From the NCBI GenBank assembly GCA_017558825.1, contig JAFYTO010000011.1, positions 62,001 through 126,000 on the forward strand: a stretch of DNA of 64,000 nt, written 5' to 3'. The first letter of the stretch is position 1; each line of letters begins with the position of its first letter. The position numbers were made by a program, and so were the translations under genes. The notes under the pieces were generated by a model that saw only the letters and a list, made by a program, of their open reading frames with translations, did not search any database and was not told where the DNA came from. This DNA comes from Clostridia bacterium (lineage in GTDB: Bacteria; Bacillota; Clostridia; Christensenellales; Borkfalkiaceae). Shown piece by piece: positions 20,792 to 41,123 of the stretch.

Positions 20792-20853
20792 TTGACATAT
20801 TGAGCTTGTCTATACTTTTACATTACAACATTGCAATGCTCATAGAGGAAAAG

Positions 20854-22794
20854 ATGGAAAAAGTTTTAAACATAGCGCTAGACCTTGGCGGAGATACTAT
20901 AAAAATAGCATTTGCTTTTGATGATGATTTTTTAAAAACTACTTATGGCAAATTTTCGTGCAAAAGCAAACTTACTCAAATAGCTATTCCTGCAATAGGT
21001 TATTATAGCGAAGATGAAGACAAATGGTATTATGGTGACCAAATTGCAAAACAAAGCGATTCTTTTGTAACAGTAGTCAAAATAAAAAGTTTAATATCGC
21101 TACTTACAAAGCAAGAGAGTAGCATTTGGCAAAGAAATAAAAACTATTACTATAACGAGCATTATTTTCCAAAATTCTACTTTCCAGTAAGAAAGAGAAT
21201 GTTAGATGATTTTGGAAAGATGGTTGCCAGCGATATGACTTTTACTTGTGAGCGATATACTCCACAAGAAATATGCAAAGATTTTTTTAATTATATAAAA
21301 GACCTTGTTGACAAAAGATGCGCCGAATTAAATATGGCTCGTGGGACAGAATTTTCTTCTTATAGAATTTCCGTAATACACCCGTCTAGCGTGGGAGATG
21401 AATATTTACACGAACTCTCTTATTTAGTTCAAAAGTCTTTTGGCGTAAAGCCTTTTAAAATTATAAATTCAACAAAAGCCCTTTCTATTTATGCGTTCCA
21501 TAGAGGTGCTGTTAGAAATAACGAAAGTTTCTTAGTTTTTGATATGGGCGAAGAAGAAATTTCAGTTACTAGAACAGGATTTATAAATAATCAAATATTC
21601 GTTGATGGTGTAGAAGGGCATAACGAGCCTTTGCAATTAGGCGGTATAGACGTTGACCAGGCTATAGTTGAAAATATTTACAAGTCAATTGCTGATAGGG
21701 AAACAATAGGCTCTCCTTCTGCCGGAAAAAAAGGGCATATCTTTGAACGTGGCGTTTTTGGCAAACAATATTTGTTAATGAAGGACGTAAAAAAAGCCAA
21801 GGTGATTCTAGGCAAGCCTTTAAAGGAAGATAGTTTTTTTAGTAATGGTGTTCCAGTTACGCTTGGCTGGGAGTTGTTTATTCAAAAAAGATTTACTAGG
21901 GAAGACTTTAAAAATAGTATGGGTTACCCAACTAATTCAGGCGTTGCTGAAAAGATTTGTGACTATATTATAAAAGAGGTTACTAGACCTATAAATCATG
22001 ACGTAAAAAAGATATTTTTATCAGGTGGAATCGCGGAAACTTATTGCCTAGTTGAATATATTTGCGAACAACTTAAATATAGGGCTCCAGATGTTAAGGT
22101 TTGCACTTTTGACAACTGTGTTTATGAAGGCGACGATTTTACAATTCTTTCTCATGAAGACTCCGTTTTTGCCGCAGCGATAGGAGGCGCTATAGTTGCA
22201 CTTAAGAATATTGAGATTAAAACAATTCTTTCATTGTCTTATGCAACTTGGGCGATTATAGACAATATTAAATGCCTTTCAATTTTTGCAGAGCGTGGCG
22301 AAATAATTGACGGAGGAAGAAGATTTGTTAACAAGTATCACGTTGGACAGTATGGTGTTTTGGAAGGAGAAGAGTTGTTCTCAACTTATCTTTCAAAAGC
22401 CGATATAGCAAAGAACGTTGGTAAAGGGAAATGGAATTATACTGATAGCGGAGGCTTAATTATAGGCGAAGATAATACCGTAGAAAGAAGCAGGGCGCAT
22501 CGCGACTTTGATTTGAGAGTGGTTTCCGGCGGAAAAGACGGAAAAATAATTTTTAGGCACAATGGCAAGCAATGTAGAATTATAACGGATTATAAAATAG
22601 GTTTTGAAGAAGGTATTATGGTAGATTCAAAAGGCGTTGCCACTCCTATTTTGAGAAATATAACTCCCAAGGGGGTATTAGTGAGAATACTTTACTTAAA
22701 CGTTTCAGGTTACAGTAGTGAAAATGTGGTTGATGCATCTAGCATAGAGATTGTTCCAGTGGGGCTTAAGGGCTTTGTAACGGTTCAAGATTAA
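20854..22794 (+). CDS. HSP70/actin-fold ATPase with a divergent C-terminus (operon gene 1)
   Basis: The 646-residue protein has the three ATP-binding signatures of the HSP70/actin superfamily: phosphate-1 LDLGGDTIKIAF (residues ~8-19), phosphate-2 VFDMGEEEISVTR around Asp230, and the adenosine motif LSGGIAET (from ~389). A large insertion lies between phosphate-1 and phosphate-2. After ~residue 475 there is a beta-rich segment (YATWAIIDNIK, later GGKDGKIIFRHNGK) that takes the place of the DnaK substrate-binding domain but is not recognisably homologous. I chose ATG 20854 (after AGAGGAAAAG) over upstream starts that lack a ribosome binding site. It is the first gene of the operon. It may act as a chaperone-like or filament-forming switch for the other components; its partners are not known. 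Confidence 0.75.
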   Translation: MEKVLNIALDLGGDTIKIAFAFDDDFLKTTYGKFSCKSKLTQIAIPAIGYYSEDEDKWYYGDQIAKQSDSFVTVVKIKSLISLLTKQESSIWQRNKNYYYNEHYFPKFYFPVRKRMLDDFGKMVASDMTFTCERYTPQEICKDFFNYIKDLVDKRCAELNMARGTEFSSYRISVIHPSSVGDEYLHELSYLVQKSFGVKPFKIINSTKALSIYAFHRGAVRNNESFLVFDMGEEEISVTRTGFINNQIFVDGVEGHNEPLQLGGIDVDQAIVENIYKSIADRETIGSPSAGKKGHIFERGVFGKQYLLMKDVKKAKVILGKPLKEDSFFSNGVPVTLGWELFIQKRFTREDFKNSMGYPTNSGVAEKICDYIIKEVTRPINHDVKKIFLSGGIAETYCLVEYICEQLKYRAPDVKVCTFDNCVYEGDDFTILSHEDSVFAAAIGGAIVALKNIEIKTILSLSYATWAIIDNIKCLSIFAERGEIIDGGRRFVNKYHVGQYGVLEGEELFSTYLSKADIAKNVGKGKWNYTDSGGLIIGEDNTVERSRAHRDFDLRVVSGGKDGKIIFRHNGKQCRIITDYKIGFEEGIMVDSKGVATPILRNITPKGVLVRILYLNVSGYSSENVVDASSIEIVPVGLKGFVTVQD

Positions 22795-22814: not shown

Positions 22815-25652
22815 ATGAAAAATTCTGAACTTAAAATTATGTTTGTGCACGGTGCTTTTGACAAAGAAATGGAAAGAGCAGGGTTGCACGACTGCAAAAA
22901 ATATACAAAACATATTGCTCAAATGAATAAATTGGCAGAAGTTCTTGATAGGTATGATGAGTTTGCCTCATTGACTTTATCTCCAGATGATTATGCACAA
23001 AAAAATGGTAATAAATATGGTATTCCTAAAAAAAGTTTTCATATGGGAGATGAAAGATTATTGCCTCATCAACTAAAGGCAACGCAAGCATTTTTAAAAG
23101 ACCTTCGTGGCTTTGGTTTACTAGCAGACGTTGTTGGTAGCGGTAAAACTTACGAGGCTTGCGCCGTTCTTAGTGAACTTGCGGCAAAAGGAAAAATTTC
23201 TTCTGTTCTTATAATTGTTCCGTCTCAAGTTTATAACACTTGGATTTTCGTGTTAGAAACTATGTTTGGAATGGGAGAAGGTAAACTTAAAACTTTAGGC
23301 AAAGAGTTTGATGACTCATTATTTGTTTGTGGAAGTGATGGCATAAGGCGTCCTACAGTTCCAATTATTGTAAAAACTGAAGACTTTGTTTATTGGAATG
23401 ATTACGACATAAAAAACGTTTTGTTCGATATGGTTGTTGTTGACGAGGCGCATAATCTTTGCGGAGAAACCGGAGTATCAGCAAAATCAATGATGCTTCT
23501 TTCTTACATGATGAAAATTAAAAAAGAAGCAAAAAAGACTTATTGTATTTTACTTTCTGCAACTCCGCATTCAGGCAACTTAGATCAAATGTTCCGTTTA
23601 TGGTATTTTATTCGCTGTAAAGGTGGCTTGCCTTCTGATTTTGAAGAAAAAGACGATAAAGACAGAACAGAAGAATATAGAAATGAAAAAAAATATTATA
23701 GAGAACATATTTGCCGTGGAGCAACTACGGTTATGGACTTTATTAATAATGTAAAAGAAATAGAGGTTGTAGAAAATTTTGCAAACGAATATCAAAAATA
23801 TGCTACTACCTATAAAAAAGTAAGCATTGATGATTTTGATAATCTCTTAGACGGCGAGAAGAAAGATGCCATTGATTGTTTCTTAGAAGACAATGAAAAC
23901 ATTAAGGCAAAAATTATGAAAAACATAGCAAGCGCATATCATAATGGCGTATTGCGCTCTATCATGATTCGTCAGCCAAATGACAGAATAAGAAAAGGAA
24001 AGAAAATCGAGAATATTTTCTTTTTTCCGGCATCTAATACATCAAACGAAATTAAAGCTAAAGGTTTAAATGGAAAAGACATTGTTTTAAACGTTTCTAA
24101 CATGAACGGAGAAAACGCTATTAATACAGTAGACGCTTCCTACTCTATTGAAAATTACGTGGAAGAAAATCGTGGACATAGGTCTTATCACCTTGCTTAT
24201 GCAGATTTGTTTTTTGAAAGAGACGGTTTACTTCACTCTTTTGGTTTAAATGACGACTGCTTCCAAAAACGTAACGCAATGGCATATTATTGGAATCAAT
24301 TGAGAGGAAGTCATTTGACGGCAAATGCAAACTCTTCTAATGAAGTTTCAATTAAATTTTCTCCTGTCTATGAAAGTAACGTATTTGACAAGAAAGTTGA
24401 AAAATTAAAAGAAATTTTAACAAAACATGCAAATTCTAGAGTAATAGTATTTTTTGATTACGATGTAAAAAAGAGCGAGCGCTGTTACGAGCAAGTTTTA
24501 GAGTTATTAAAAGAAGATTCTAACTTTAAAGATAGAATTATTGTAGGCGACTCTTCAGATAAATCTGTAACTGAGAAGAAATTCAATGAAAAAGAAAATG
24601 CTATTTTAGTTGTTACAACTAGCGCATTTACAGAGGGCGCCAACTTACAAAAAAGTAATATAATTGTAAACTTCCAAATAACTCCTAACCCTCTAGGTAT
24701 GGAACAAAGTATAGGTCGTATTTTCCGTTTGGGTCAAGAAAATGACGTAATAGTTTATTCTTTAGCCGACATGTGTAAATTGGAAGGTTTTGTTCTTATG
24801 TATTTTACGCGTATAGGACTTATGACAAGCAACAGCGGCGATGCAGCAATTATAGCGGGCAGTAATAATGACAACATGGTTACTGTTAGATGTCCGGCAT
24901 GTGGCAAAGTTAAGTTGATGTCTAAAGAAGACTATGATACGTGCAAGAAAAATGATTTGGACGAGATATATTGTAACGACAATGAAAAATGTAGGCAAGA
25001 AAGTGAACGCGGCATGCTTATGCTTGAAATTAACGGTAATGAAATCAAGTGTGAGAATTGCGGAAACGTTATAAAACGCCAAAATTCAGATAATGGCGGG
25101 CAATATTTTTGCTTATCTGTAAATAGTACGGGAAGCGGTGTTATGTGCAACGAGGGCTCTAAAGGCGACAGATTGTTGTATTGCAGAAAAATATGTGCAA
25201 TATCACATTGCGAGCGTTTTATTTCAGGGCCAATGCAAGACAAGTGTGAAGCGCTTAACTACTATAAAGAAAATCCTATGGCTTCAGATGCAGATTTAGG
25301 AGAACTTTGCGATAATTGTAAGAGCGCGTCAAAATGCTATGCAAAATGCCGCATTAAAGATAAGCCGGAAGGCATTGAAGGTTGTAAAAACTGTGCGCAA
25401 GCAACTTGTTTTCCAAAACCTCACGTTATCGAATTTGATAACAAGTGGGAGGCTGAATGCCCTGTATGTGCGGCAAACGGCGTAAAGGGAATATTAAGAC
25501 CTATCGTTGCTAGAACGTTTGAAACATATATACGTTCTGCTTATGATTATCAACAAGATGGTGGCAGGTCTTTTTGCGATAATTTAATGAAAGAGGCAAA
25601 TAAAGTTGCTCAAATTCAAGCAATTTTAGCAAACGACAAGATAGAGGACTAG
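22815..25652 (+). CDS. SNF2-type DEAH helicase with Cys-rich zinc-binding tail (operon gene 2)
   Basis: The 945-residue protein contains a complete SF2 SNF2-like motor: LLPHQLKA (Q-like), Walker A ADVVGSGKT (Lys111), DEAH (210-213), motif III LLSATPHSGN, and a helicase-C half with TSAFTEGANLQ (motif V) and EQSIGRIFRLGQ (motif VI, ~630-641). From ~residue 690 to the end there are more than twenty Cys in pairs such as CPACGK, CENCG, CDNCKSASKC, CKNC and CPVC, which must form several zinc ribbons. SNF2 motors translocate on duplex DNA or remodel protein-DNA complexes; the ribbons would give nucleic-acid or protein specificity. RBS AGGAGA, 20 nt after gene 1 and 4 nt before gene 3. Confidence 0.85.
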   Translation: MKNSELKIMFVHGAFDKEMERAGLHDCKKYTKHIAQMNKLAEVLDRYDEFASLTLSPDDYAQKNGNKYGIPKKSFHMGDERLLPHQLKATQAFLKDLRGFGLLADVVGSGKTYEACAVLSELAAKGKISSVLIIVPSQVYNTWIFVLETMFGMGEGKLKTLGKEFDDSLFVCGSDGIRRPTVPIIVKTEDFVYWNDYDIKNVLFDMVVVDEAHNLCGETGVSAKSMMLLSYMMKIKKEAKKTYCILLSATPHSGNLDQMFRLWYFIRCKGGLPSDFEEKDDKDRTEEYRNEKKYYREHICRGATTVMDFINNVKEIEVVENFANEYQKYATTYKKVSIDDFDNLLDGEKKDAIDCFLEDNENIKAKIMKNIASAYHNGVLRSIMIRQPNDRIRKGKKIENIFFFPASNTSNEIKAKGLNGKDIVLNVSNMNGENAINTVDASYSIENYVEENRGHRSYHLAYADLFFERDGLLHSFGLNDDCFQKRNAMAYYWNQLRGSHLTANANSSNEVSIKFSPVYESNVFDKKVEKLKEILTKHANSRVIVFFDYDVKKSERCYEQVLELLKEDSNFKDRIIVGDSSDKSVTEKKFNEKENAILVVTTSAFTEGANLQKSNIIVNFQITPNPLGMEQSIGRIFRLGQENDVIVYSLADMCKLEGFVLMYFTRIGLMTSNSGDAAIIAGSNNDNMVTVRCPACGKVKLMSKEDYDTCKKNDLDEIYCNDNEKCRQESERGMLMLEINGNEIKCENCGNVIKRQNSDNGGQYFCLSVNSTGSGVMCNEGSKGDRLLYCRKICAISHCERFISGPMQDKCEALNYYKENPMASDADLGELCDNCKSASKCYAKCRIKDKPEGIEGCKNCAQATCFPKPHVIEFDNKWEAECPVCAANGVKGILRPIVARTFETYIRSAYDYQQDGGRSFCDNLMKEANKVAQIQAILANDKIED

Positions 25653-25656: not shown

Positions 25657-27294
25657 ATGGCGAAGAATAGAATTTTTGTAAATAAAGAATATGAAAAAGC
25701 TTTTAATAGTATTTGCGAACTTATTAAAGGCGATTGTTTTAGAGGCTTAGGCTGGAAAGTTAATGGTGATATTATAGATGATGGTATTTATGAATATCAA
25801 TTAACGTCTGTTTATAGTCAAGAAAGAGAAAAGGTTAAGCATGGTTTTTCTGATGACGGAGCAACGTGGTTTAAAGCGTTGCGCGGTCAAGAAGTAAACA
25901 ATAATGATGCCATATGGACTTCTTTTATAGAAACTGCTGGGGTTGAATATCATAAAAGATACTCAGTTGTGGAATATCAGCAAAAAAATAGAACAAGAGA
26001 TGAAAAAGAGAAAGAGTTTGAAAACAATAAAAAAACAATAGAACAGTTTACTGAACTCTTCTTTCCAGAATTTCATCAAAGAACAGAGCTTAAAGAAGTT
26101 AGTGGAGAAGGCATAAAGGAAGATATTTACGGCGTTTCAATGAGGATTGAACTTTCTGGTGGAACGGGTGCTTCTTTGCCGGTTCTTTGTAAAGTATATT
26201 TTTCAAAATCTGGCAGAACAGTTACGCCTATAACAAGCTTTGCAGCTCAAGAAATAGACTTAAATCTTTCAGAAATTATTCCAGAAGAATCTATTGAAGA
26301 AAGTGTACTGTCTGGAGAAAGTGCAATTGACACAACGTTAAACGCTGTTGACAGGCTTATAAATAATAGCGAATCTAATTTTGCTGATTATCTTTGCTAT
26401 AGTGACAAGTCAGACAAATTGGCTGTTAAAAATCTTTTAGCTCAATTATCTCACAACGAAATCAAGTTAGAGTGTCAAAGAGTTGACGTGTTATATATTA
26501 CTCATATTGCTACAACCACTTTCTTATATGATGTGTTCCATATGGGAAAACCCTTGTTTAGATTAAGCACAGGTTTAAATAAATCTTTAACGCTTTCATG
26601 CCTAAACTGTGGTGCTGAAGAAAAGTTGGTAGAGTCTAACGTTATTACTTATGAAAAAAATGGTGTAGAACAAGTTGCAATGTTATCACTTGGTTTGAAA
26701 AACTTTGGTCTCACTGAAGAACAAATAGAAGACATTAAAAACTTTAGTAAACTTAAAGAGCACTACCTACACGTTTCCTGCCCACTTGCTCACAGAGGGC
26801 AAGATTGTTCTACTGTTAAATGTAAGAGTCAACTTTTTGATGCTGATAACAGTAGTGGAGTTTTATATAAATGTAAAGATTGTCCTTATCCAGAAATAGT
26901 GTATACTTCTTTAACGGGAGAAAAGAAATATACACCGTTTATGATTTTTGCGAAGGACGCTATGACGTTGTTAGATGCAAAATCAGAGGAACTTAAGCCT
27001 GTAAAATGTAATAACTGTGGTAGATATTTTACTAGTAGGGCAATGAAAAATAAAAATTGCACAATTTGCAGTGAGGCAAATGTTAGCATGGGAACGGAAT
27101 CTCAAAAAGCCCTTTATAAAAAGTACAAAAACCTTTTACCAATAGGAGCAAGAGTATTAGTAAAAAATTCTACAAAATTCTGTTTAGAAGATGAAGAAGT
27201 TATAATTTTTGTTGTTGGCACAAAACAATATATGCTTAATAAATTAAACGTAAAAGAAAACGGCTACTTTGATAAGCCAACTAGAATAAGATAA
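25657..27294 (+). CDS. zinc-ribbon protein of unknown function (operon gene 3)
   Basis: I do not recognise the 545-residue product as a named family. The N-terminal ~290 residues form an acidic alpha/beta region; the segment TRDEKEKEFENNKKTIEQF is a likely coiled helix. The C-terminal half has several Cys clusters: SCLNCGAE (~314), a C-x8-C-x4-C group in the HVSCPLAHRGQDC block (~375), CKDCPYPE (~407) and CNNCGRYF plus CTIC (~451-472). A final beta-rich ~60 residues ends the chain. The style of these clusters matches the tail of gene 2, so the two may form one nucleic-acid-binding surface. There is only a 4-nt gap to gene 2. No signal peptide or membrane segment is present. Confidence 0.6.
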   Translation: MAKNRIFVNKEYEKAFNSICELIKGDCFRGLGWKVNGDIIDDGIYEYQLTSVYSQEREKVKHGFSDDGATWFKALRGQEVNNNDAIWTSFIETAGVEYHKRYSVVEYQQKNRTRDEKEKEFENNKKTIEQFTELFFPEFHQRTELKEVSGEGIKEDIYGVSMRIELSGGTGASLPVLCKVYFSKSGRTVTPITSFAAQEIDLNLSEIIPEESIEESVLSGESAIDTTLNAVDRLINNSESNFADYLCYSDKSDKLAVKNLLAQLSHNEIKLECQRVDVLYITHIATTTFLYDVFHMGKPLFRLSTGLNKSLTLSCLNCGAEEKLVESNVITYEKNGVEQVAMLSLGLKNFGLTEEQIEDIKNFSKLKEHYLHVSCPLAHRGQDCSTVKCKSQLFDADNSSGVLYKCKDCPYPEIVYTSLTGEKKYTPFMIFAKDAMTLLDAKSEELKPVKCNNCGRYFTSRAMKNKNCTICSEANVSMGTESQKALYKKYKNLLPIGARVLVKNSTKFCLEDEEVIIFVVGTKQYMLNKLNVKENGYFDKPTRIR

Positions 27295-27311: not shown

Positions 27312-30300
27312 ATGAAAAGTTCAGTTTTTCAAAATAAGATAAAAAACAGTAAAATTCTTTTATACGTTACCTCTATATTGTTATTAGTAACAGACGTAAT
27401 TCTTGCCGTTGCACTTGGTATTGGCGGAGAGTTATTTAATAGTGGAATTTGTGTTTTTCTTACTGTTATATTTGACGCATTATTAATAGTGGCAATTTGT
27501 TTTTCTAATTTTAGAGTTAGTTATAGCAAGAAATTGCCTATCGCATACATAATAGCAACGCTTTTAATAGACGTTATAATTGCCCCTATTCTTTCTAAGT
27601 CAATTTTTACAATTGTTGCATTTTTATTGTTTGCACTTTTTAGAGTGGCGGCTATTATTGCTATTTTATTCGGGCTTTTAGGCAGTGTTGCACGTGCAAA
27701 ATATATTAAGTTCTTAACGTTTATATTTACAGTAGCATTTGCGGGATTTTCAGTTTTTTATGTTTTCAACGTTTTCCCAAACGGCTTTTATGGACAAGGA
27801 AAAGTTGGTATTAGAAACATTGCTTACGAATATAACGAAGAAGAAGACGGCTACGTTGCAAAACTTCTAAATGGAAATAGAGGCAACACAATTGTTATTG
27901 CAAATGAATTTAATGGTAAAAAGGTTGTAGGTATAGATGCAGGCATATTTAACAGTGATGAGGTTGAATTTGTCAATCTTGAGTGTGATGCCGGATTCTT
28001 TATTGAAAATCATACAATTCTTCAAAACATAAACAAAAAGCAAGTTATTACAATAGACTATACAAAAATAGATGAGGCAAGAAAGTCTATATATTTGAAT
28101 TCAAAGGGCAAAACAACATCATTAGCGCAAGCTTATGTTGCTTTTGCAAACCAGATTACGCCAAGCGGTCTTGAAAAAAATCAAGTTTATATAAATTTTG
28201 ACTACTCGTATGCTGATTTAGAATACGCTAAATTTGAAACGATAGATACATGGATTGGTGAAAAGGGTGAGGTATTTGACCTTGTAGCGCATGCTGGGCA
28301 TCTCCCTTACGTAAAAGAATATGATTTAGAAAATGAGACCTTCTTAAAAGAAAACTATGAGAACGGTGGCAAAGTTATAAACGCTCTTGTTTATAACAAT
28401 CAAGTAATTATAGGAAGCGAAGTAAATGAATCTATGCCAAACACTGTTATTTCATTTGAACATATACGAAAGGTAGTTGTTCAAGAAGATAACGATAGTG
28501 TTTACAATTTATTGACTAATGACGTTGCGTTTTCAAACGGCGGAAATGCCAGATATATTTTAGAAACGGATCCATTCAACATGTTAGGAGATATAACGCA
28601 AAGGGAGGGTTTTACAGTTTCATTTAAATATAAAACAACAGAAAATGGCCAAACAAAAACATTTAATGAGCTTAGTAAAATTCTTACTGGTGACGTGTTT
28701 ATAGTTCCTGAATGGAGTCTTGATTTGCCTAAGGTTTCGGCAATAGAGAAAAACCAAAATAATTTTGTATATGGCGATACTTTAACTCTTTCGGCATTAG
28801 CTCAACATGATGCTGGCGATAAGTTTGAGTATAGGTGGGTTAAAGATGGTAAAGATAGTGTAATTTCATACGAATCTAGCTATGAAAAGAATAACGTAAA
28901 ACCTTTAACAGATTCAGGCACGTATAAATTATTTGTAACTGCAACACCTTCTTGCACTTCGCTTACGGCAACAGCAACAGTATCAGTAGATGTTGCGGTA
29001 AATAAAAAGTTGTTAAATTTCACCTGGAGCAACACGGAAACTGCAGTTTATTCGGGCAATTACCAAACTATAACAGCTTCTTATAACGAAAATGACGTTA
29101 TTAATTCGGACACTATTGAGGGTTATATTGATACAAGCATTGATAGCAAAGGAGGGTTTACGTCTACTCATAAAGATGCGGGAACTTATAATTATGCAAT
29201 AACGTTAAAAGGTGATTGTAAAGATTTATACACGGTTAACGCAAACAATCAATTTTATACTTGGACAATTAAACCTTACGAAATTGAAGTTAATTGGGAC
29301 GAGGAAGAGTATACTTATAATAATGAAATTCAAATGCCTGATATTGAACCTATAAAAGGAATAGGGCTTGAAAAAGACACGTACTTAAGTTATAGCGTAA
29401 CCAAATATATTGGCGACTGTAAAAGTGCGATTAATCATACTGTAAAAATTATATTGGATAATTCAATTCAAGCAGGCAATTATAAAATAACGAATTATAC
29501 AAAAGATTACAAGATTAATAAAAAAGTAATTTCTTTAACTTGGTCAAGTAATTTATTTACTTACAACGCAAAGTCGCAAAAGCCTACTGCTACTGCAAAT
29601 GACGTATGCTTAAAGGATACGTGTTTGGTAAGCGTTTCAGGAGAAAAGGTTGCGGTTGGAAACTACGTTGCCGAAGCAACGTTGGTTAACACTAACTACA
29701 CTATAGAAGATGGTTATACAACTAAAGAGTTTACAATCGAGCCTAAAAAAGTTACGCTTATTTGGAATAAAAATTCATTTGTTTATTCATCAAGGCAGCA
29801 AGGTCCAACGGCAACCGCTGTTGGAACATGTAGTGGAGACGTTGTAGGTTTTGACTACAGCGGATATGAAAAAGATGTTGGAATGTATACTGCATATGCT
29901 ACAATTAAAAACTTGAACTATGAAATTTCCGGTTCAAATTATTACGATTATAGTATTGAGCAAAAAGAAGTAACGTTGAGATGGGCAAAAACCACAACTA
30001 CTTATAGTGGAGAAGAACAAAAACCTACGGCAACCGTTAACAGCGTATATGCTGGAGACAACTGTTTTGCCATTATAGAATTAGATGGTTTAGGTATAAA
30101 CGCTGGCACGTATAATGCAACTGCAACGTTGAATAACAGTAACTACAAGTTGGCATCTACTTCTAGCTCCACGTCTTTCAATATTACAAAAAAATCGCTT
30201 ACTATAACTGCAAATTCTCACGCGATTACTTATGGTGATACCCCTTCAAATGCGGGTATAACATATTCAAAAGATTTTGTGAATGGCGAAGACTATACAG

Positions 30301-31178
30301 TTTTAGACGGTTCTTTAAATTATAGTTACAGTTATTCAAAAAACGACCCGGTAGGAAATTACACTATTAGGATTTCTGGACTTGAAGCAGACAATTATGC
30401 TATAACTTATAAGCAAGGTCTTTTAACTGTAAAAGAAAAAGAAATATCTGTTAATATCGATGATAAAACCAGCATATACGGAGCTAATATAGAACAACTC
30501 ACGTCAAGCATTGTTGAAGGAGCTCTCGTTGCGAGCGATTCCGAACCTTATAAATTAACAACTGTTGCAAAATCTACGTCTAACGTTGGCAACTATGCAA
30601 TTAGAGGAACAATTACAAATGCAAACTATAAAGTTAATTTTATAGAAGGCACTTATAAAATAACCAAGGCAACACTTACTGTACAAGCTACTAGCAAAAC
30701 AGAAGTAACATATGGTTTTACAGGTACTATACCTTATAACTTTAGCGCATCAACAAATAACGGAAAGACAGCTACGGTTACTGGATATAGTAGTGTTAAT
30801 TCTAAAACAAATGTTGGCGAGTATAGTTATGACGTTAATTACGATACAATAAATTACAACATGGTAAAGGTAAACGTAAATAACTTTAAGGTAGTAGTTA
30901 ATCCAAAAGCAGTAACACTTTCTTGGAATCCTTTATCTTCTTACACTTTAACAAATTACACCCAATTAAAGCCGTTAGTTGCAGGTGCACTTATAAGTGA
31001 TTTAAATTTAACTTACACTTATAATGCTGTAAGTGGGCAAGGTGGAATGGTTGAAAATAATGCTCCTTTAAGAAATGGTAAATATATTGTAATTGTGAGT
31101 TTAAATAATGCAAACTACTTATTACAAGGCTCTTTGTCGACAGAGTTTACAATAAACACACCAGTAGTAACTGAATAA
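27312..31178 (+). CDS. membrane-anchored protein with nine MBG-like repeats (operon gene 4)
   Basis: The 1288-residue protein starts with five hydrophobic helices within the first ~155 residues (for example ILLYVTSILLLVTDVILAVA and FLTFIFTVAFAGFSVFYVF). A Lys-rich N-terminus inside and an odd number of helices puts the rest outside. Residues ~160-480 are an unassigned domain, ~485-555 an Ig-like domain, and ~563-1280 about nine ~80-residue repeats of MBG/YDG type. Repeat starts include KKVISLTW, KKVTLIW and KEVTLRW with a following QKPTAT, and later YGDTPSN and IYGANIE forms. Such repeats build stiff surface stalks. No LPxTG sorting motif ends it. RBS AGGAGG. It is the only clear membrane protein of the operon and may be its sensor or envelope anchor. 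Confidence 0.75.
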   Translation: MKSSVFQNKIKNSKILLYVTSILLLVTDVILAVALGIGGELFNSGICVFLTVIFDALLIVAICFSNFRVSYSKKLPIAYIIATLLIDVIIAPILSKSIFTIVAFLLFALFRVAAIIAILFGLLGSVARAKYIKFLTFIFTVAFAGFSVFYVFNVFPNGFYGQGKVGIRNIAYEYNEEEDGYVAKLLNGNRGNTIVIANEFNGKKVVGIDAGIFNSDEVEFVNLECDAGFFIENHTILQNINKKQVITIDYTKIDEARKSIYLNSKGKTTSLAQAYVAFANQITPSGLEKNQVYINFDYSYADLEYAKFETIDTWIGEKGEVFDLVAHAGHLPYVKEYDLENETFLKENYENGGKVINALVYNNQVIIGSEVNESMPNTVISFEHIRKVVVQEDNDSVYNLLTNDVAFSNGGNARYILETDPFNMLGDITQREGFTVSFKYKTTENGQTKTFNELSKILTGDVFIVPEWSLDLPKVSAIEKNQNNFVYGDTLTLSALAQHDAGDKFEYRWVKDGKDSVISYESSYEKNNVKPLTDSGTYKLFVTATPSCTSLTATATVSVDVAVNKKLLNFTWSNTETAVYSGNYQTITASYNENDVINSDTIEGYIDTSIDSKGGFTSTHKDAGTYNYAITLKGDCKDLYTVNANNQFYTWTIKPYEIEVNWDEEEYTYNNEIQMPDIEPIKGIGLEKDTYLSYSVTKYIGDCKSAINHTVKIILDNSIQAGNYKITNYTKDYKINKKVISLTWSSNLFTYNAKSQKPTATANDVCLKDTCLVSVSGEKVAVGNYVAEATLVNTNYTIEDGYTTKEFTIEPKKVTLIWNKNSFVYSSRQQGPTATAVGTCSGDVVGFDYSGYEKDVGMYTAYATIKNLNYEISGSNYYDYSIEQKEVTLRWAKTTTTYSGEEQKPTATVNSVYAGDNCFAIIELDGLGINAGTYNATATLNNSNYKLASTSSSTSFNITKKSLTITANSHAITYGDTPSNAGITYSKDFVNGEDYTVLDGSLNYSYSYSKNDPVGNYTIRISGLEADNYAITYKQGLLTVKEKEISVNIDDKTSIYGANIEQLTSSIVEGALVASDSEPYKLTTVAKSTSNVGNYAIRGTITNANYKVNFIEGTYKITKATLTVQATSKTEVTYGFTGTIPYNFSASTNNGKTATVTGYSSVNSKTNVGEYSYDVNYDTINYNMVKVNVNNFKVVVNPKAVTLSWNPLSSYTLTNYTQLKPLVAGALISDLNLTYTYNAVSGQGGMVENNAPLRNGKYIVIVSLNNANYLLQGSLSTEFTINTPVVTE

Positions 31179-31202: not shown

Positions 31203-32363
31203 ATGAAATGCACTCAAATTAACTGTGGCAAAAAATTTGAAAAATCATTAATATTATATAACGGAGCTTTAGTTTGCCCTCATTGTAAAAAAGAACTAAC
31301 AGTAGTTTCAGATTTTAAAATTACTGAGAGAAATCAAGAAATATATAATTTGTCCGAGTTATATTTGCATAGATATCTTTCCCCAAAATCTCAAGATGAA
31401 ACAAGGGGAGCCGTTATTAAATTAAGGGCTAATGAAATGATAGGATTGGCAATAGATAACTGTAACACTGCCGCAAAAGAAGGCAATCCGTATGCCGTTT
31501 ATAGAATGGGATATTATAACGAGTATTTTTTAGAGTCGCAACGTGGCGAAACGGACAGAATTCGCGTAGCGTTCAACTATTATTCATCACTTTGTTATAG
31601 TGAGGCAAAGAAAGTTAAAGTAGAGCAAGGGGCTTCGGCAATGAGCGAAGAAGAGTTCGAAAGGCTCAAGCGCCAAGCCGCAATCGCTTTATTAACTCTT
31701 TATGACCGTTATCCTCAGGCATTAAAAGGCTCTACGAGATATGATTATGAAAAAAACAAGCAACGTATAACAAGCATTTACGGAGATTTGCCGGTCGAAG
31801 TAAATTTAGCAAAAAAACGTGCTAGCGGACATACTCAAAACGTGTTTAGAATTTTATTATCGTGTTTAAATAGAAATAGAGCACCACTTTGGGGTTTGTT
31901 TTTGCTTACGGGTTCAGAGTTAAAAAGTTTATTTTTAATGAAAAAAGACCAAAGGGAAAAGAAGCCAGAGCTTTATAAATTAATATCAAAAGGAGTACAT
32001 CTTAGATATTTGCCGTGTGACTCTGAGGGTGTTATAGCAAAAGATTTGGAAGATAGATATTTTATAAATTTTCCAAACAATGAAGAAAGAGTTAAAGAAA
32101 TGCTACAAGATATAAAAGACGATGAAAATTTGTATCTTTACTTATTTAATACAAAGGGCGGACACGAATATTTGTCGGCATCACAAATTAAAAAAATTGG
32201 CATTAAACTGGCAAGTAACTCGTACGAGTCAGTATGTTCTTTAATAGACTATTCTGCACAGGAATATTTATTTTTTGATGATGATATTTTTGTTTATAAA
32301 AGAGGCATTAAAATAGAAAAATGCGTAGACGTTTTAATTGAAAAAATTTCGGGAGATGAATAA
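31203..32363 (+). CDS. N-terminal zinc-ribbon protein with helical repeats (operon gene 5)
   Basis: The 386-residue product opens with a zinc ribbon (Cys3, Cys8, Cys25 and Cys28; VCPHCKKEL). Next is a helical stretch (residues ~50-140) with AAKEGNPYAVYRMGYYNEYF, which resembles a Sel1/TPR-like repeat. The second half is alpha/beta with conserved-looking FINFPNNEERVKEML and YLFFDDDIFVYKRG blocks. I cannot assign a family. A scaffold role between the zinc-binding and coiled-coil partners is a reasonable guess. It starts 24 nt after gene 4 with AAGGAAA as ribosome binding site and ends 1 nt before gene 6, so the two are translationally coupled. Confidence 0.6.
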   Translation: MKCTQINCGKKFEKSLILYNGALVCPHCKKELTVVSDFKITERNQEIYNLSELYLHRYLSPKSQDETRGAVIKLRANEMIGLAIDNCNTAAKEGNPYAVYRMGYYNEYFLESQRGETDRIRVAFNYYSSLCYSEAKKVKVEQGASAMSEEEFERLKRQAAIALLTLYDRYPQALKGSTRYDYEKNKQRITSIYGDLPVEVNLAKKRASGHTQNVFRILLSCLNRNRAPLWGLFLLTGSELKSLFLMKKDQREKKPELYKLISKGVHLRYLPCDSEGVIAKDLEDRYFINFPNNEERVKEMLQDIKDDENLYLYLFNTKGGHEYLSASQIKKIGIKLASNSYESVCSLIDYSAQEYLFFDDDIFVYKRGIKIEKCVDVLIEKISGDE

Positions 32364-32364
32364 G

Positions 32365-33864
32365 ATGGATATAAAAAATATTGTAAATTGTTTTGAAGCA
32401 AACGGAATTGTTTATCCACGTGAGTTTATTACTATTGAAAAGGACGGTTGTGACAAGGTTTTTGAAGACGTATATAAGAAAACCCTTAAAAGAATAGATG
32501 CTCTAGTTAGATTTGGAAGCAATAATGGTTTTAATGCCGACCTTAAAACAGGAATAGCAAAATTGGTTAAAATAATGTGCACTATTAGCAAAGAAAAACG
32601 TGTTAAGTTGCACGATAAGTTTTTAGCAGAATCAAATAAAATCTATAGCGAAATGGGGAATAGTATGAAAGAAGTAAATGTCCAATTTGATATGGTAGGA
32701 AAAGTAAACACCTATATTGAAAAATACAAGCTAGGCATGGAAGTGCTTTTAGATATGGATGTGGCCTCAGACCGTAAGACGGTATTACATAAAGGCATAG
32801 AAAAATGCAAGCAAATGCAAAGTATATTAGCTGATGTTATGAATAATTCTACGGCATCAGCCTTAGAGCAAGCAAAAGAAATTATTAAAGAATTGCAAGC
32901 ATGGGCAGATATCGTTGCTAACAAGATGCATGATGATGCAGATTTAATTCATTTAGACAAAGCTATTGCAATTTCAAAACAATGGAAAAACAATAGAGAA
33001 GTTGTAAAAGCAGGAATGTTTGGAAAAACCAATAAGGTTGCAGACATTAAGGAACTCGAATTTTTAGAAGACAATCTTTCTATGATTGGCAAAAGTAGAG
33101 ATGCTACTAGAGAAATTGGCATCTTTATGCAAAATCTTAAAGAATACAAAGAACAAGTTGTAGGCAATGGTCCAGAAAAAATAAAAGAAGAAATAGAGCT
33201 TAAAAAAGAAGAAAGCTCTAAACTTAAAGCAAAAAAAGATGATTTAGTTGTACAGTTCCAAAACGGCGAAATTTCGAAAATGGATTTATATGAAGAATGT
33301 ATGGATATAGATAATGAAATGGCGGACGTTAAGGAAGATATTGAAGACCTTCAATATAAATATAACAATGATAAAGAGGCCTATAGGCTTACAAAAAAAG
33401 TTCTTGACAATTTAAATTCTATTAACAGTCAAGTTTTAGAATACAAAGCAGACCCTATATATTTTGGTTTATTGGCTGATGAGCTTGATTTTAGCAAGTT
33501 AACTAGAGTGATGCGCGGGGCTGGAAATACGGAAGACGTAGACTATATTTTTGACGTTCAAAGTATTTTGGATAGAGTTAAAGATAGAAGGCGTAAAATT
33601 GAAAGAGAAATGACAGACGCTATTAGAAAGAGACACGAGGCTAGAAATGCTGAGCGCAGACAAGAAAGGCAAGCTCGCTTATCAGCGCAAATGAATGGTC
33701 GTGAAAACGAAAGAAGCGAAACTGAAGCAATGGCAGAAGATTACATAAATCAACTTCTTGGACAGACAAAAGCTACTGAAAACACTGAAAATGATAGTGT
33801 TAAAAAGAAGGAAGATATAGCAGAAGAGAATACAAGAATCGCATTAGGCGATGATGAATTATAA
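32365..33864 (+). CDS. coiled-coil protein (operon gene 6)
   Basis: The ~499-residue product is almost wholly alpha-helical. Strong coiled-coil character is seen at ~270-350 (EEIELKKEESSKLKAKKDDL and following) and ~415-455, a very basic helix (RKIEREMTDAIRKRHEARNA) followed by an acidic, low-complexity tail ending in GDDEL. There are no Cys clusters, no membrane segment and no enzyme motif. The basic-helix-plus-acidic-tail pattern recalls PspA/ESCRT-III-like proteins in general shape only; I do not claim homology. ATG 32365 is preferred, 9 nt after GGGAG; an ATG at 32356 in the same frame is too close to that site. It overlaps the end of gene 5 closely and is 8 nt from gene 7. Confidence 0.6.
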   Translation: MDIKNIVNCFEANGIVYPREFITIEKDGCDKVFEDVYKKTLKRIDALVRFGSNNGFNADLKTGIAKLVKIMCTISKEKRVKLHDKFLAESNKIYSEMGNSMKEVNVQFDMVGKVNTYIEKYKLGMEVLLDMDVASDRKTVLHKGIEKCKQMQSILADVMNNSTASALEQAKEIIKELQAWADIVANKMHDDADLIHLDKAIAISKQWKNNREVVKAGMFGKTNKVADIKELEFLEDNLSMIGKSRDATREIGIFMQNLKEYKEQVVGNGPEKIKEEIELKKEESSKLKAKKDDLVVQFQNGEISKMDLYEECMDIDNEMADVKEDIEDLQYKYNNDKEAYRLTKKVLDNLNSINSQVLEYKADPIYFGLLADELDFSKLTRVMRGAGNTEDVDYIFDVQSILDRVKDRRRKIEREMTDAIRKRHEARNAERRQERQARLSAQMNGRENERSETEAMAEDYINQLLGQTKATENTENDSVKKKEDIAEENTRIALGDDEL

Positions 33865-33872: not shown

Positions 33873-35828
33873 ATGATTATTCCTGAGGCAATAGACTACG
33901 TTAATACTTTATATTATAAAAGCATAGATGTTCAAACTCTTAGTGAAGGGGTTGAAATTTTGCAAGACATATTAACAAATAAGCAACCACGTGCAAATTT
34001 TAAAAAAAATGCGGAAGCTCTTTTATATCGTCTTACAGCTAAAATCCTTGCCTTAAAATATTTTGATGAAGGGTATTTAGAGGAAGATTATATTATACTT
34101 AAACAGCAAATTGCCGAATTTATTGTTAAGGTTGAGCAAGAAGGGTATTTAAAAACAGTTACGTTATTAAAAAATCTTTTAGAAGTTGCTGAAAGTGTAC
34201 ATTCGGTAATGGATGGCTTAGATGCTGAAATTTGTCGCATGCAAGATGAAAATGGAAACCCTACAACCTCCGACCAAATAGAGATTGAAAAATTTGCAAT
34301 TTATTTTAGAAGCAAAGCAGAAGCATTGTCTAACGTAAAAGACACGGCAACGCTTTTTGGCGAAAACGTGGCCATGAAAGATATTAAGGCCTGTGCCATA
34401 AAAGACGTTTTAGACGTTGCTATATGGGCTGAAAATATATTAAAAGCTTCTACTTCAATGGAAAAAGAGAAATTCTTTAACGAGAATTTGCAGTTGCTTG
34501 AAGAACAAGATGGGCTTAAAATTTTTAAATATTATCCTCCTATTTTAGAAAAGGAGAAAAATGCATCTAAAGTAACGGTTATTATGTCTCCGTTTATAGA
34601 TGAAGTTATTTTGTATGCTCGTGCTTATGAAAAAGAAAGGGGTATTAGTTTTTCAATAATTAACGCTTCTGCATTTATAGGTAAAGCAGATAGTTTTATT
34701 AAGGAAGTATTTGATAGCTTAGGCGAAAAAAATTCGAATATTATAATCACTGGAATTCACTTTTACAATTATCAAAACAAAAGTGCGTTAGTAGAAAACG
34801 TTTTATATTATTCAAAACAGTTTGGCGAAGTGTTTTTAATTGATGAATACGGCGATAGAAGTATTTACGATTTTGCGTACGATATAATAAAACAAAAAGA
34901 AGATTTATCTTATAGTGATATTTCATATAGATATTTAACTATGCCAAACTACAATTTTGTTGTTTCCGAAATGGAAGAGATTGGCATGATAAACGCTTCC
35001 GAATATGCTTATATAAAAAATAAAATGGCGTTTATGGGTTACGTTGGGCTCAACGTTGCGTATTCTTTATTTATGCAAGAAAGGCAATGGAAAGATGATG
35101 TTATAGATATTTCTAGGCGCCACGAGGCTGAATGTCAAACATATCTAAGAAGAATACCATCACAACAACAATTTATTGACGTAGGTTGGAAGCATTTAGA
35201 GCTTAGTTATAACGCTCGCTCAAGAAAAGAGAATTTTGATTACGATTCTATAAAAGACGTTAATATTAACAATATTAAAAAAATACTATCTTCTTCAAGC
35301 ACTCTTTTTGCAAAATGTGGACTTATAGTAAAATATTGCGTTTTGGCCGGAGATGACGTTTCTTCTTGGGAAAGAGTTGAAAAGGGAGTAAAAGAGGGGC
35401 GAATTAATAATGCAACGAAGTTAGTAGCGCATCTTTTAGATTGCGAAAATGAGCCTGAAGTAAAAATAATTTCATTGGACGAGTGGGAATCAAAAGGCGC
35501 AGGAGCTCTTTGTTGCGATGGCGGAAAACGCATATTATACAGGGAAGATTGTTGTAATGACGTTGCTTGGTTAATGGATGCCATTTGCCACGAATGTTAT
35601 CACTCGTTTCAACACACTTTACAACATAGAGGCTGGCAAAAATGGCATTGGATGGAGCTTGGCGTAACAGAATATCGCGTTCCTGAATGGGACTATAATT
35701 TTGGTAAATACAAATCAGCAGGGTCGCAAGCGTACGCTATACAAGTTGTAGAAAGCGATGCTAGAACATTTGCAAACGACTGTCTTATGCAAGGAGAAGA
35801 GAGTTGGCAAACTGTTGATTGGGAGTAG
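33873..35828 (+). CDS. HExxH zincin-like protein (operon gene 7)
   Basis: In the 651-residue product the C-terminal ~100 residues look like a zinc metallopeptidase: ICHECYHSFQHTL, with His573, Glu574 and His577 as HExxH, then VVESDARTFAND, where Glu627 would be the third ligand. This ESDAR-like glutamate ~50 residues downstream resembles the E..A..FA pattern of ImmA/IrrE-like zincins. The preceding ~530 residues are unassigned: a helical N-terminus and an alpha/beta middle region with VTVIMSPFIDEVILYARAYE and NIIITGIHFYNY. If active, it could cleave a repressor or a phage or host protein to trigger the system. The stop lies 2 nt before the preferred start of gene 8. Confidence 0.65.
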   Translation: MIIPEAIDYVNTLYYKSIDVQTLSEGVEILQDILTNKQPRANFKKNAEALLYRLTAKILALKYFDEGYLEEDYIILKQQIAEFIVKVEQEGYLKTVTLLKNLLEVAESVHSVMDGLDAEICRMQDENGNPTTSDQIEIEKFAIYFRSKAEALSNVKDTATLFGENVAMKDIKACAIKDVLDVAIWAENILKASTSMEKEKFFNENLQLLEEQDGLKIFKYYPPILEKEKNASKVTVIMSPFIDEVILYARAYEKERGISFSIINASAFIGKADSFIKEVFDSLGEKNSNIIITGIHFYNYQNKSALVENVLYYSKQFGEVFLIDEYGDRSIYDFAYDIIKQKEDLSYSDISYRYLTMPNYNFVVSEMEEIGMINASEYAYIKNKMAFMGYVGLNVAYSLFMQERQWKDDVIDISRRHEAECQTYLRRIPSQQQFIDVGWKHLELSYNARSRKENFDYDSIKDVNINNIKKILSSSSTLFAKCGLIVKYCVLAGDDVSSWERVEKGVKEGRINNATKLVAHLLDCENEPEVKIISLDEWESKGAGALCCDGGKRILYREDCCNDVAWLMDAICHECYHSFQHTLQHRGWQKWHWMELGVTEYRVPEWDYNFGKYKSAGSQAYAIQVVESDARTFANDCLMQGEESWQTVDWE

Positions 35829-35830: not shown

Positions 35831-38800
35831 ATGAATAAAATTAGTGAAAATATAGAGGCGTTTACAATAGACCTTTTACATATAAACGATATTTCAAGCA
35901 ATAAACTGATTGATTTATATGCTGGAGATTTAAGTAAAACCTTTTTTATTTCTCACCCAACAAGAGATAATTTAAGTAAATACGTTTTAGAAATTATTTC
36001 TGCCAGAATAGGAAAAGTGGGAAATACCGTATTATTGCAAAGTGCAATTGCAAATAAAAGTGAGCAAATTTTAGGTAAAGATATAAATGATTTAGCTTGG
36101 CAAGATGCTAAAGGCAATACTGATGCCGTTGCACTTCATAAATACATTGAAAACGTATATAAAGAGTTAGACCTTAGGGGAAACAATCCATTATTTTTTA
36201 GCGTGGGCGCAATAACGTGGAAAGTTGCTAGCAAAGAATATTCCATTAAAGAAGTTACATCTCCACTTTTACTTTTTCCTATAAAATTTATTCGCTCCAC
36301 AAGCAAAACAACTCCAATTTATATAGAATTTGTTTGTGATGACATCTATATAAATCCTTGTTTTTTGGCGGTCTTGCGACAAATGGCAGGAGATAAAATT
36401 GTTGAAGATTTTCCACATCCCAACCAAAGCGTGTGCGACGTAGATTGCCCTATTAACATTGATTATTTAGGCAATGGCGAAGCATATTTTGCAAAGGTGG
36501 AGGAGTACGTTAGTTCGCAATGTAGATCAGATATTAGTAGTGATACTACGTTTAAATTTGATAAAAATATTGTTGCAATATCTCAATATAATCACGATGA
36601 ATTGTGTATGTATTATGATATAAAGCGCAATAAAGAAAAGATATATTCTCACCCTCTTATAAATAGAATTTTTAGCAAGGGTGAGCCTTACCAAGAAGTT
36701 GATTATTCAAAAACAATACCTCAGTTTATAATGCCTAGAGATAGCGTTCAAGAACGTATTGTTAAAAGGGTTGTTGCAGGGCAGTCTTTAATAGTTAAAG
36801 GCCCTCCAGGAACGGGTAAAACGGTTACTATTACTAACTTAATAGCTTCCTTATTAGCGCAAAATAAAAAAATTCTTTTGTCATCTCAAAAGTCTGCGGC
36901 TATGTTTGAAGTGTATGCTAAATTGCCACCGTCTATTCGCAAGTTTGTAATGCTTTTAGATAGTGAAACAGAGGCTCAAGCTTCAAAACTTAACGTTGTT
37001 GATGTAAAAAAAGAATTCAATCAACTTTTAAGCGATAGAAAAAATCACACTTTTTCGGCTGACAAATACGATGATTATGAATGTGGCAATAGGGAAATTG
37101 CTTCTACTATTGCAACTATAAAAAACTACCGAGAACTTATGTTTGACAACAAAGATGTTGTGGGCAGGAGTTATTATTCGGCGTTAGACACTATATGTAA
37201 ATATGATATAGACCCAATCTTGTTTATGAATTCTAATGATGCCTGCAATATGACGTCTAAAGAATTTTCATATTATGCAAATTTGGTAAACGAGGCTGGC
37301 GAATGGCTTGATAAGGCAGCTTTAGACCACGAACTTATAAAAAGTCCTTGGTATCCAATAAACGGCAGTTTAGACGGCGTAGAAATTGAGAAGGTTGTTG
37401 AATATAACGGCAAGCTTTCTAATGCTATAAGTGAACTTGTTGCCGAATGTGAAGGCGTTGAAGGCTTACAGAGTAAATGGTATAAAAATATCTCAATTTC
37501 AGTTCTTGATTGCGTTTTAGAACAGCCTTTAGATGAAGGGCTTCTTAAAACCGTTTCAAACATTGATAATGTAGAGTTGTTAAAATCGGTATGCACAGTA
37601 TATGAAGAATATTTAGCAACGCAAAGTGCTTCAACAGAAATTTCAAATCCGCCAGCTGAAGCTATTGAAAAATATGCTAAAGAGTTAGGGTTATGTAGAA
37701 TTGATGGAGATTTAAAAAAGTCGCAATTCCTAACATTCTACGATAATTCAAACGTAATAGAATTGCTATCAGGGAAAAGTCAATTAGAAGCAATTACTAG
37801 CGCCATTAATTTTGTTGAAGATATAGAGGTTAAGAAGAAGGAATGTTTAGATGAATTCTATTCAATTTTTAGCCCCGATATTTCTAAAGAAAATTTATCA
37901 CTTATAGAATGCTCTTTTAAAATATTTAACGCTTACGCTAAAAAAGAGGATTGTATCAAACCAAAGCTTTTAGATTTTAAAACAAAAAAAGCTTATGCGA
38001 TATTAAATAAGTTGGGTTATGGCGAAGAGATTTCATTTAAAGATGTTGTAAAAGGCGTTTGCTTATTTAACAACGTAATAAATTTAGATAAAAATTTAGA
38101 TGGTCTTAAAGCCAAATTATCTTCTCAATTTAAAATAAAATTAAACGCTCAGCAAATTGAAGCGTTATTCAAGTTTGTAGATAGTTGTAAGAAATCCGAA
38201 TTAGATATAGCTAATTGCGTTAAAGATTTTATTGACTGTAAAGATACGATTTTTAATGCAATTAAAGAGTGTAATAGCGATGTTGATTTTACTATTAAAG
38301 ACTTACTTAAAACGTATTTAAAAACAGGAGCGTTTGAAAATCTTGCAGCCGAAACACAACGTTTTGCAGACGCCAATAATATTTTAATAGAAGGCAATAG
38401 CGTTGAAAGTTTTGCAAAAGCCGTATATGGAACAAGCAAAATTTTTGAAAGTTCAGCAGTAGGAAACACTATAGAAGAAGTGCTAAGAAACGGCGGTATA
38501 ATCTATAATGCCAAAAACAAATTAAAGCCTTTACTATTTAAAATAAAAGCATTATTATTGGAATTTGAAAAAAATTGTTTTGCATCATTCTATACTGTCA
38601 AAAACGAAAAATGCTTACTTAAAGAACTAGAACTAATAGTTAAAGAAGGGCAAGATAGAAGTGTGTGCAATGCACTTTGTCAATATTTTAAAGTAGTTAA
38701 ATGTTCACATGAAGCGTGTTCATTAGAACGTTTCTTTAGGCCTTTTGAAACAGGATTAAGGGAAAAAGGCAAATATAGCTATAAAAGTATTTTTGAATTT

Positions 38801-40424: not shown

Positions 40425-41123
40425 ATGGCTGATAAAGAAACTAGATTTAGGTCGGACAGTTTAAATTTATTAAACGAAGAAATTGTTGCAGAGCAACAAC
40501 AAAGGGAAAAAGAAAAAATAAGCAAAGCAAGAGAACAAAGTAAAATTGATTTTAGAATCAAGCAAGAACAGTTACTCAATCAGCTTATAGAACTTGAGCA
40601 AGAATATGGCGAAGACTATTATTTAGTGGAAATGCTTTCAACTTTCTATGAGGTTTCCGTTGAAATGGAAAACGTTATGAAGTCAATGGAATCTGTAAAC
40701 ATGGCAATGGAATGTATTACAGAAGCTTTAAGTTTTTTAGATTCCACTATTCAGTTTGACCAAAAATTAATGGAGCAATCTAACAGACAAAGCTATTCTT
40801 TTATTGCGCGTTTTAGATTAAGAATGCAAATGCGTAGAACAAGGAAGAATAATATTGGTAGAATGAAAGCCATGGTAGATGGCCTTATGTTTAAATATAG
40901 AATGATGGACGATATGGTTAAGTCATTAAAGAAATTTGCCCTTACTATGAGCAAGAGCTTTAAAAAGGTTGGCAAAAAGAAAAAGGGCGCCGCCAACGTT
41001 GGTCCAACAGAGGCTCAAAAAAGAATTGCGCAAAGAAAAGCAGAACTTGGAGTTGCCAATAATGCTACTATTACGGAATCTACGGGCACTGATTCTAGTG
41101 GCAATTATGATGACGTATTATAA
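40425..41123 (+). CDS. small coiled-coil protein, 232 aa (operon gene 9)
   Basis: The product is highly charged and helical. Residues ~20-55 (EEIVAEQQQREKEKISKARE) form a coiled coil; a Met-rich helix (~80-115, YEVSVEMENVMKSMESVNMA) and a strongly basic segment (RFRLRMQMRRTRKNN) follow; the C-terminus is a low-complexity, Ser/Thr/Asp tail. It has no enzyme motif. It starts at ATG 40425, 1 nt after the gene 8 stop, and sits directly before the Vps4-like ATPase, which makes it a candidate substrate or adaptor of that ATPase. I find no family name for it. Confidence 0.6.
   Translation: MADKETRFRSDSLNLLNEEIVAEQQQREKEKISKAREQSKIDFRIKQEQLLNQLIELEQEYGEDYYLVEMLSTFYEVSVEMENVMKSMESVNMAMECITEALSFLDSTIQFDQKLMEQSNRQSYSFIARFRLRMQMRRTRKNNIGRMKAMVDGLMFKYRMMDDMVKSLKKFALTMSKSFKKVGKKKKGAANVGPTEAQKRIAQRKAELGVANNATITESTGTDSSGNYDDVL

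Follow-up and report, generated by a model that had tools for sequence, protein, structure and literature searches.

The window analysed here, a stretch of 64,000 nucleotides from contig JAFYTO010000011.1 of a Clostridia bacterium (assembly GCA_017558825.1), contains ten genes between positions 20839 and 42332, all carried by one strand and separated by small gaps or overlaps. Terminator-like sites in the part of the window from 20200-40199 are no more numerous than in shuffled sequence (8 versus a mean of 11). The fourth gene codes for a surface stalk protein, the main subject of this report; its reading frame is intact, with gaps of 17 bases to orf545 on the 5' side and 24 bases to orf386 on the 3' side. 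The first five genes constitute the invariant core of the operon, composed of Hsp70-like ATPase, SNF2 helicase, zinc-cluster protein, surface protein and zinc-ribbon/Sel1-like protein:

20839..22794, + strand: hsp70L, remote Hsp70/actin-like ATPase, core gene 1 (phosphate-1 motif; profile search)
22815..25652, + strand: SNF2-family helicase with C-terminal cysteine clusters, core gene 2 (Pfam)
25657..27294, + strand: orf545, cysteine-rich protein, core gene 3 (Cys columns)
27312..31178, + strand: surface stalk protein, core gene 4 (1288 amino acids)
31203..32363, + strand: orf386, N-terminal zinc ribbon and Sel1-like region, core gene 5 (Cys pattern; Sel1)

Related operons were sought by means of a different gene, orf545, which kept the sample free of any requirement for the surface gene. 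In the family, orf545 matches pass E <= 0.001 in 14 of 201 genomes, 12 of them strong, and the same 12 genomes carry the adjacent N-terminal part of the surface protein. In the order, 26 of 297 genomes pass, with 22 strong matches and four scraps, and an independent query, the N-terminal region of the surface protein, yields near-full-length matches in precisely the same 22 genomes. This N-terminal query passes in 147 order genomes altogether; beyond the 22, the matches listed are partial LRR, Ig or repeat matches. Scraps of orf545, 39 to 97 residues long, were not counted as operons (four in the order, E 2e-4 to 1e-3; two in the family, 7e-4 and 9e-4; one in the phylum, 5.6e-4). Named genomes contribute 22 loci, all 22 with the surface gene, nine of which duplicate family genomes and three (L082, L084 and L085) order genomes, leaving 43 distinct loci (12 + 21 + 10). 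The surface gene lies directly 3' of orf545 in all 43, with a gap of -41 to 28 nucleotides, and orf386 is the next gene in 35 of the 35 loci whose contig continues; every orthologous operon examined possesses the gene, a point that the initial annotation had proposed to check. Of the two findings by which that annotation said it would be refuted, orthologous operons lacking the gene and repeats predicted in the cytoplasm, neither came up.

Sequence distances of the N-terminal 600 residues of the surface protein run parallel to those of its core partners (r 0.876 for orf545, 0.868 for hsp70L and 0.836 for the SNF2 protein, 35 loci), correlations reached by none of 999 Mantel permutations. One possible counter-example is G083, where the repeat part of the surface gene, followed by orf386 and the coiled-coil gene cc508, lies on a contig of 2.9 kb, and neither orf545 nor SNF2 was found in the assembly of about 320 contigs; this is probably an assembly gap. 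Because the surface gene is retained while the genes downstream of orf386 vary, it belongs to the invariant core of the operon; it is not a hitchhiker.

The surface protein itself is built of a membrane bundle, a conserved ectodomain and a long repeat stalk:

27312..27782, + strand: predicted five-helix membrane bundle, residues 1-157, N-terminus inside (AlphaFold2 model; positive-inside count)
27783..27800, + strand: juxtamembrane motif G-x-x-G-Q-G, predicted outer face (alignment of 25)
27804..28046, + strand: residues 165-245, beta segment similar to the beginning of BspA-type LRR_5 proteins
28047..28724, + strand: conserved membrane-proximal ectodomain, residues 246-471 (alignment of 25; confident AlphaFold2 model)
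28725..29006, + strand: Ig/PKD-like domain, residues 472-565 (structure match; profile match; PKD)
29007..31160, + strand: nine MBG-like repeats, residues 566-1283 (nine repeat-model matches; MBG_2 by Pfam)

An AlphaFold2 model of residues 1-638, derived from an alignment of 25 orthologues, has a mean predicted local distance difference test score (pLDDT) of 84.4 and contains five membrane-length helices (residues 15-37, 45-64, 70-94, 98-126 and 130-157). By a crude hydropathy rule, 42 of the 43 loci likewise have five helices; the exception, G731, has six. Positive charge is found in the N-terminal tail, loop 2 and loop 4 (Lys+Arg fractions of 0.234, 0.200 and 0.429 in these predicted-inside parts of the 25 orthologues), and is sparse in loop 1, loop 3 and the stretch past helix 5, predicted to lie outside (0.040, 0.065 and 0.094). 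This distribution supports a predicted topology with the N-terminus inside and the C-terminus outside, and because of it about 1130 residues, including the repeats, are placed outside the cell. A cytoplasmic location of the repeats was rejected on the charge bias of the loops. The juxtamembrane motif follows immediately after helix 5, and its G158, G161 and Q162 are invariant in 25 of 25 orthologues. LPxTG is absent in all 43 rows, eight of which end early at a contig end, and in the window protein the hydropathy rule detects no hydrophobic segment past the N-terminal bundle and no C-terminal helix. Sortase anchoring was ruled out on the lack of both LPxTG and a C-terminal membrane segment in the window protein. 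Late hydrophobic segments appear by the same rule in two other rows, G863 and G810.

Past the bundle, a profile of the surface protein (A10) partially matches many open reading frames (ORFs) over columns ~176-240; of five such ORFs fetched, three were scanned and all three are LRR_5 proteins, while Pfam LRR_5 matches none of the 25 surface-protein members at E <= 0.01. Residues 472-565 adopt, in the model, an Ig fold (VIA-align Z 12.5, root-mean-square deviation 1.8 over 84 residues). The profile of the surface protein also matches an Ig-like chain with E 5.7e-16, and PKD is found in eight of 25 members; a PDB search with the sequence of the window protein alone gave nothing at E <= 0.01. The rest of the protein is repeats. 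A repeat model, made from the window protein's own repeats and then extended to orthologues, matches nine times, whereas Pfam sees only MBG_2 (PF18676; E 5.4e-18 in two stretches, 65.8 bits against a cut-off of 25) and sub-threshold MBG_3. With an MBG domain above the Pfam cut-off, the protein counts as an MBG-repeat surface protein. The stalk ends at the C-terminus in a repeat, and at E <= 0.01 Pfam finds only MBG families and no recognised adhesive tip; the conserved part of the protein adjoins the membrane and not the tip of the stalk.

Repeat number was compared in 34 complete genes, that is the 43 loci minus L081, whose frame is broken, and eight genes cut by contig ends. It ranges from 4 to 18 (median 8.5), with protein lengths of 918 to 2226 residues, while the N-terminal ~600 residues are alignable throughout. 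L081 (2961-6150) has its surface gene broken by a frameshift or an assembly error into two frames, of 840 and 200 amino acids. Unrelated giant surface proteins are numerous in several genomes of the order (for example L191-L195) and carry MBG, BspA-type LRR or Listeria-Bacteroides repeats; repeats alone are not a marker of the system described here. The initial annotation, which had proposed five N-terminal helices with repeats outside, an Ig-like domain followed by about nine MBG repeats, and anchoring by the helices without LPxTG, and which had named a conserved membrane part with varying repeat number as a point to check, agrees with these results.

Its further statement that the partners are helicases and an HSP70 holds in part: two helicases are clear by Pfam, but the "HSP70" is only a remote homologue. 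The phosphate-1 motif D-(L/V)-G of hsp70L is kept in 35 of 35 complete copies, and a profile search places Hsp70 chains at the top with E 0.0015. The window copy has no Pfam match; Pfam HSP70 is found in two of 17 members at E <= 0.01 (best E 0.0023), and the member from G725 shares 25% identity with DnaK (E 8.8e-11). On these sequence comparisons, hsp70L is assigned as a predicted remote Hsp70 homologue. The SNF2 protein matches Helicase_C (5.7e-13), ResIII and SNF2-rel_dom. Thirteen Cys columns are invariant among 11 aligned orf545 sequences, for which Pfam gives no convincing family. The Cys residues of orf386 are near-invariant in 16 sequences, and Sel1 is found weakly in two of 16 members.

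Downstream of the core lies a variable module, represented in the window by five genes:

32356..33864, + strand: cc508, coiled-coil protein, variable module (PDB matches only weak and mostly to coiled coils)
33873..35828, + strand: mp651, C-terminal zincin-like metallopeptidase motif, optional (motif)
35831..40423, + strand: superfamily 1 (SF1, DUF4011-type) helicase with MTES_1575-like C-terminus, optional (Pfam; Walker motifs)
40425..41123, + strand: cc236, long-helix protein with acidic C-terminal tail, mostly ...DDI... (alignment of 17; model)
41130..42332, + strand: AAA+ ATPase, Cdc48/Vps4 type (Pfam; profile search)

Ten-gene operons carry coiled coils, zincin, SF1 helicase and AAA+ 3' of orf386. 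Zincin and SF1 are missing in six loci (G838, G790, G758, G704, G720 and G828), two loci (G612 and G810) consist of the core only, G173 has other small genes 3' of the core, and G615/L084 and G171 have two tandem mp651 zincin genes in an otherwise similar operon. HExxH with a downstream E-x-x-A is retained in 23 of 23 complete copies of mp651, the window copy of which has no Pfam family. Walker motifs of the SF1 helicase are kept in 13 of 13 complete copies, in which its MTES_1575-like tail (window 40112-40423) is also conserved. PF18741 at this C-terminus stays below the cut-off (23.4 versus 38.2 bits), and the acidic pattern that we take to be typical of MTES_1575-type nucleases was not seen in the 13 copies; an active nuclease is for these reasons not claimed. 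The AAA+ ATPase has an AAA domain (E 1e-33) and a marginal Vps4_C (21.7 bits, cut-off 21.3), and its closest solved chains are Cdc48/VCP (E 1.4e-84 for a VCP-like chain).

Because of the neighbouring Vps4-type AAA+ and the acidic tail, an ESCRT-III-like nature of cc236 was considered. The protein is all helix in its predicted model (pLDDT 70.5); a Foldseek search for the ESCRT-III fold returned ten matches, none with E <= 0.001 (best Vipp1, E 3.3), and Snf7 was not seen among the best 25 of 49 Pfam families. In cc236 and its relatives (alignment A11), a linker leads to a short acidic motif at the C-terminus, mostly DDI(SDIL) or DDIL, and the AAA+ gene follows directly. The AAA+ ATPase may dock to this tail with its N-terminal region.

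The operon is patchily distributed, being present in 12 of 201 genomes of the family, 22 of 297 of the order and, among 398 across the phylum, in its own genome only; named carriers include Candidatus Borkfalkia (Christensenellales in NCBI taxonomy). On the 5' side of the operon, window 12913-17997 contains tRNA-Gln, followed by an MmeI-like type IIG restriction-modification gene and an AbiH abortive-infection gene. Neighbouring genes are not kept together in eight other genomes of the genus, where an empty insertion site was sought, and because of this no insertion site is definable there. Two further observations were made in the window. A tandem repeat at 11386-11578 (75-base unit, 2.6 copies) lies inside an ORF adjoining a CobW/DUF1980-type gene and encodes, by eye, a His-, Glu- and Cys-rich stretch, possibly a metal-binding tail. 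At 42408-44267 on the - strand is a gene for a membrane protein of 619 amino acids, by eye of TrkA-N/ion-channel type, with no Pfam match at 1e-5.

The gene for the surface protein always accompanies those for one set of internal machines that handle DNA and protein, a pattern suggestive of an as yet unnamed system linking the cell exterior to these machines. Our preferred interpretation, held tentatively and with rather less than even confidence, is that a core machine of five proteins, to which a variable module is added, has the surface protein as its obligatory outward-facing subunit and most likely takes part in the response to invaders. It builds on the domain order, strict linkage, co-divergence, variable repeat number and modular downstream genes described above, together with a predicted topology. 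The repeat stalk would carry the protein through the wall and touch something outside, and the repeats could set both length and contact. A change there would pass from the membrane-proximal domain through GxxGQG and the five helices to the ATPases in the cytosol, for which the conserved helices, with the motif right behind them, would offer a natural route of signal or mechanical link. In response, these ATPases might work on nucleic acid as well as protein at the membrane. The purpose, the least certain step, would be to respond to an invader (phage or conjugating cell) detected at the cell surface. Defence is the first guess in view of the helicases, the modularity of the downstream genes, the patchy distribution and, in this genome only, the type IIG enzyme and AbiH nearby. 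When scanned by PADLOC, the SNF2 protein scores best against the defence helicase models BrxHI/DrmD, and the SF1 helicase matches PDC-S37 (E 3e-111).

Several observations weigh against this interpretation. The PADLOC helicase matches are at superfamily level, and surface protein, hsp70L, orf545, orf386, cc508, mp651 and cc236 have no PADLOC match at E <= 0.01. The restriction-endonuclease-like tail of SF1 seems to lack catalytic residues, and the Mantel permutations used for co-divergence ignore shared ancestry. Neighbours elsewhere, named by eye, are mostly housekeeping genes (uvrB-uvrA, pgk, carB, dxs), with no integrase recognised among them, and loci of genus g354 share recurring downstream neighbours, so that vertical inheritance fits better than a mobile island. 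The first 546 residues of the surface protein have no match in phages and orf545 has no relatives in plasmids or viral contigs, on which grounds viral, phage or plasmid carriage was rejected.

It is possible, if rather doubtful, that the operon represents an undescribed class of system resembling innate immunity, in which an Ig-domain surface receptor with variable stalk directly controls an Hsp70-SNF2 machine and swappable modules. Its component that recognition takes place outside the cell, before or as the invader enters, is just as doubtful. An envelope-stress or proteostasis function, in which the surface protein reports the state of wall or membrane, the Hsp70-like ATPase, AAA+ and zincin remodel or degrade proteins at membrane sites and the helicases adjust expression, appears unlikely but stays a serious rival because four loci adjoin the dnaK cluster. 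In these loci (G612, G171, G173 and L080, corresponding to L175/L176, L060/L061, L062 and L080) the operon lies within ~3 kb of regular hrcA/grpE/dnaK/dnaJ genes, upstream in some and downstream in others. A rough count over 423,200 flank bases of 36 loci with >500 flank bases gives an expectation of ~0.31 (P ~0.0003), although the comparison is post hoc, the loci are not fully independent and the remaining ones are not near dnaK. The mostly chromosomal housekeeping neighbours also speak for stress; two nucleic-acid helicases and patchy presence would be unusual for such a system.

We also consider it unlikely that the operon serves to build or control a surface structure or an adhesin for attachment to host, food particle or other bacteria. 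Giant surface proteins of the family often carry MBG repeats and Ig domains, and 64 of 201 family genomes match the window surface protein somewhere at E <= 0.001, mostly via the repeats; repeat number is variable, as in stalks. However, each operon has a single surface gene, whose product lacks a recognised tip domain and a sortase motif and has an N-terminal five-helix anchor, and we know of no helicases acting as adhesin assembly factors. A machine for DNA transport, with the surface protein as outer channel part or docking site and the helicases handling incoming or outgoing DNA, is very unlikely: SNF2 and SF1 helicases do share the operon with a membrane protein, but Pfam matches of the ten genes include no pseudopilin, ComEC or relaxase family, and SF1 is missing in the two core-only loci. 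Nothing was found in favour of a surface gene lying in the ATPase operon by chance, a view to which we give next to no credence and which we rejected as contradicted by the 43/43 adjacency, 22/22 co-occurrence and co-divergence.

To our knowledge, the defence systems described so far mostly target molecules that are already present within the cell. A strictly conserved outward partner of helicases and chaperone-like ATPases would exemplify signalling from outside the cell to nucleic-acid machines within. Should stress turn out to be the role instead, the five linked core proteins still form a new unit in gut Clostridia, in which orf545 and, beyond the weak Sel1, orf386 are without an assigned family and hsp70L is remotely assigned. 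We read this as an undescribed multi-ATPase system of Christensenellales relatives, perhaps devoted to anti-invader defence, with the surface protein as its outward subunit.

No description of the operon was found in open-licence literature, a body that does not cover bioRxiv preprints. In the part of the source consulted, CoCoNuTs (extended type III-A; PMC11090510) come nearest to the operon in composition; these predicted conflict systems unite an Hsp70-like ATPase and a Cdc48-like AAA+ with coiled coils, zinc ribbons and inactivated nuclease folds, and their add-on cassettes vary. In contrast to them, the Pfam matches of the ten operon proteins (E <= 0.01) contain no McrB-type GTPase, McrC or vWA, and an outward-facing membrane protein is part of the invariant core. 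NTP (nucleoside triphosphate)-dependent conflict systems with HSP70/GTPase components (PMC7159879) similarly bring together, in the portion seen, chaperone-like ATPases, helicases and peptidases in modular operons, but their MoxR-vWA or GTPase core was not found by Pfam in the operon; the terms Vps4, ESCRT and MBG are missing from the main text of that paper. With BREX, DISARM and Dpd the likeness consists in the SNF2-type helicase, closest to BrxHI and DrmD models, whereas the PADLOC scan of the ten operon proteins revealed no further system component (for SNF2, among the best 25 of 51 families). In Pseudomonas aeruginosa, according to the section consulted of PMC10250203, DUF4011 proteins are encoded by a conserved gene flanking a defence hotspot, a position that does not qualify it as a defence gene.

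Fibrillar adhesins, as far as the consulted parts of PMC8286594 and PMC9210967 describe them, share with the window protein a long chain of stalk domains, here nine repeats, and an Ig domain on the surface. The window protein differs by having no adhesive domain recognised by Pfam and no LPxTG, by its N-terminal multi-helix anchor and by its tie to cytosolic ATPases. Likeness to BspA-type LRR_5 proteins is limited to the short membrane-proximal beta segment. The surface protein is therefore made of known domains, while the five-gene core fits no system tested. We rate the core as belonging among modular NTP-dependent conflict or stress systems, with the outward-facing subunit as its unusual feature.

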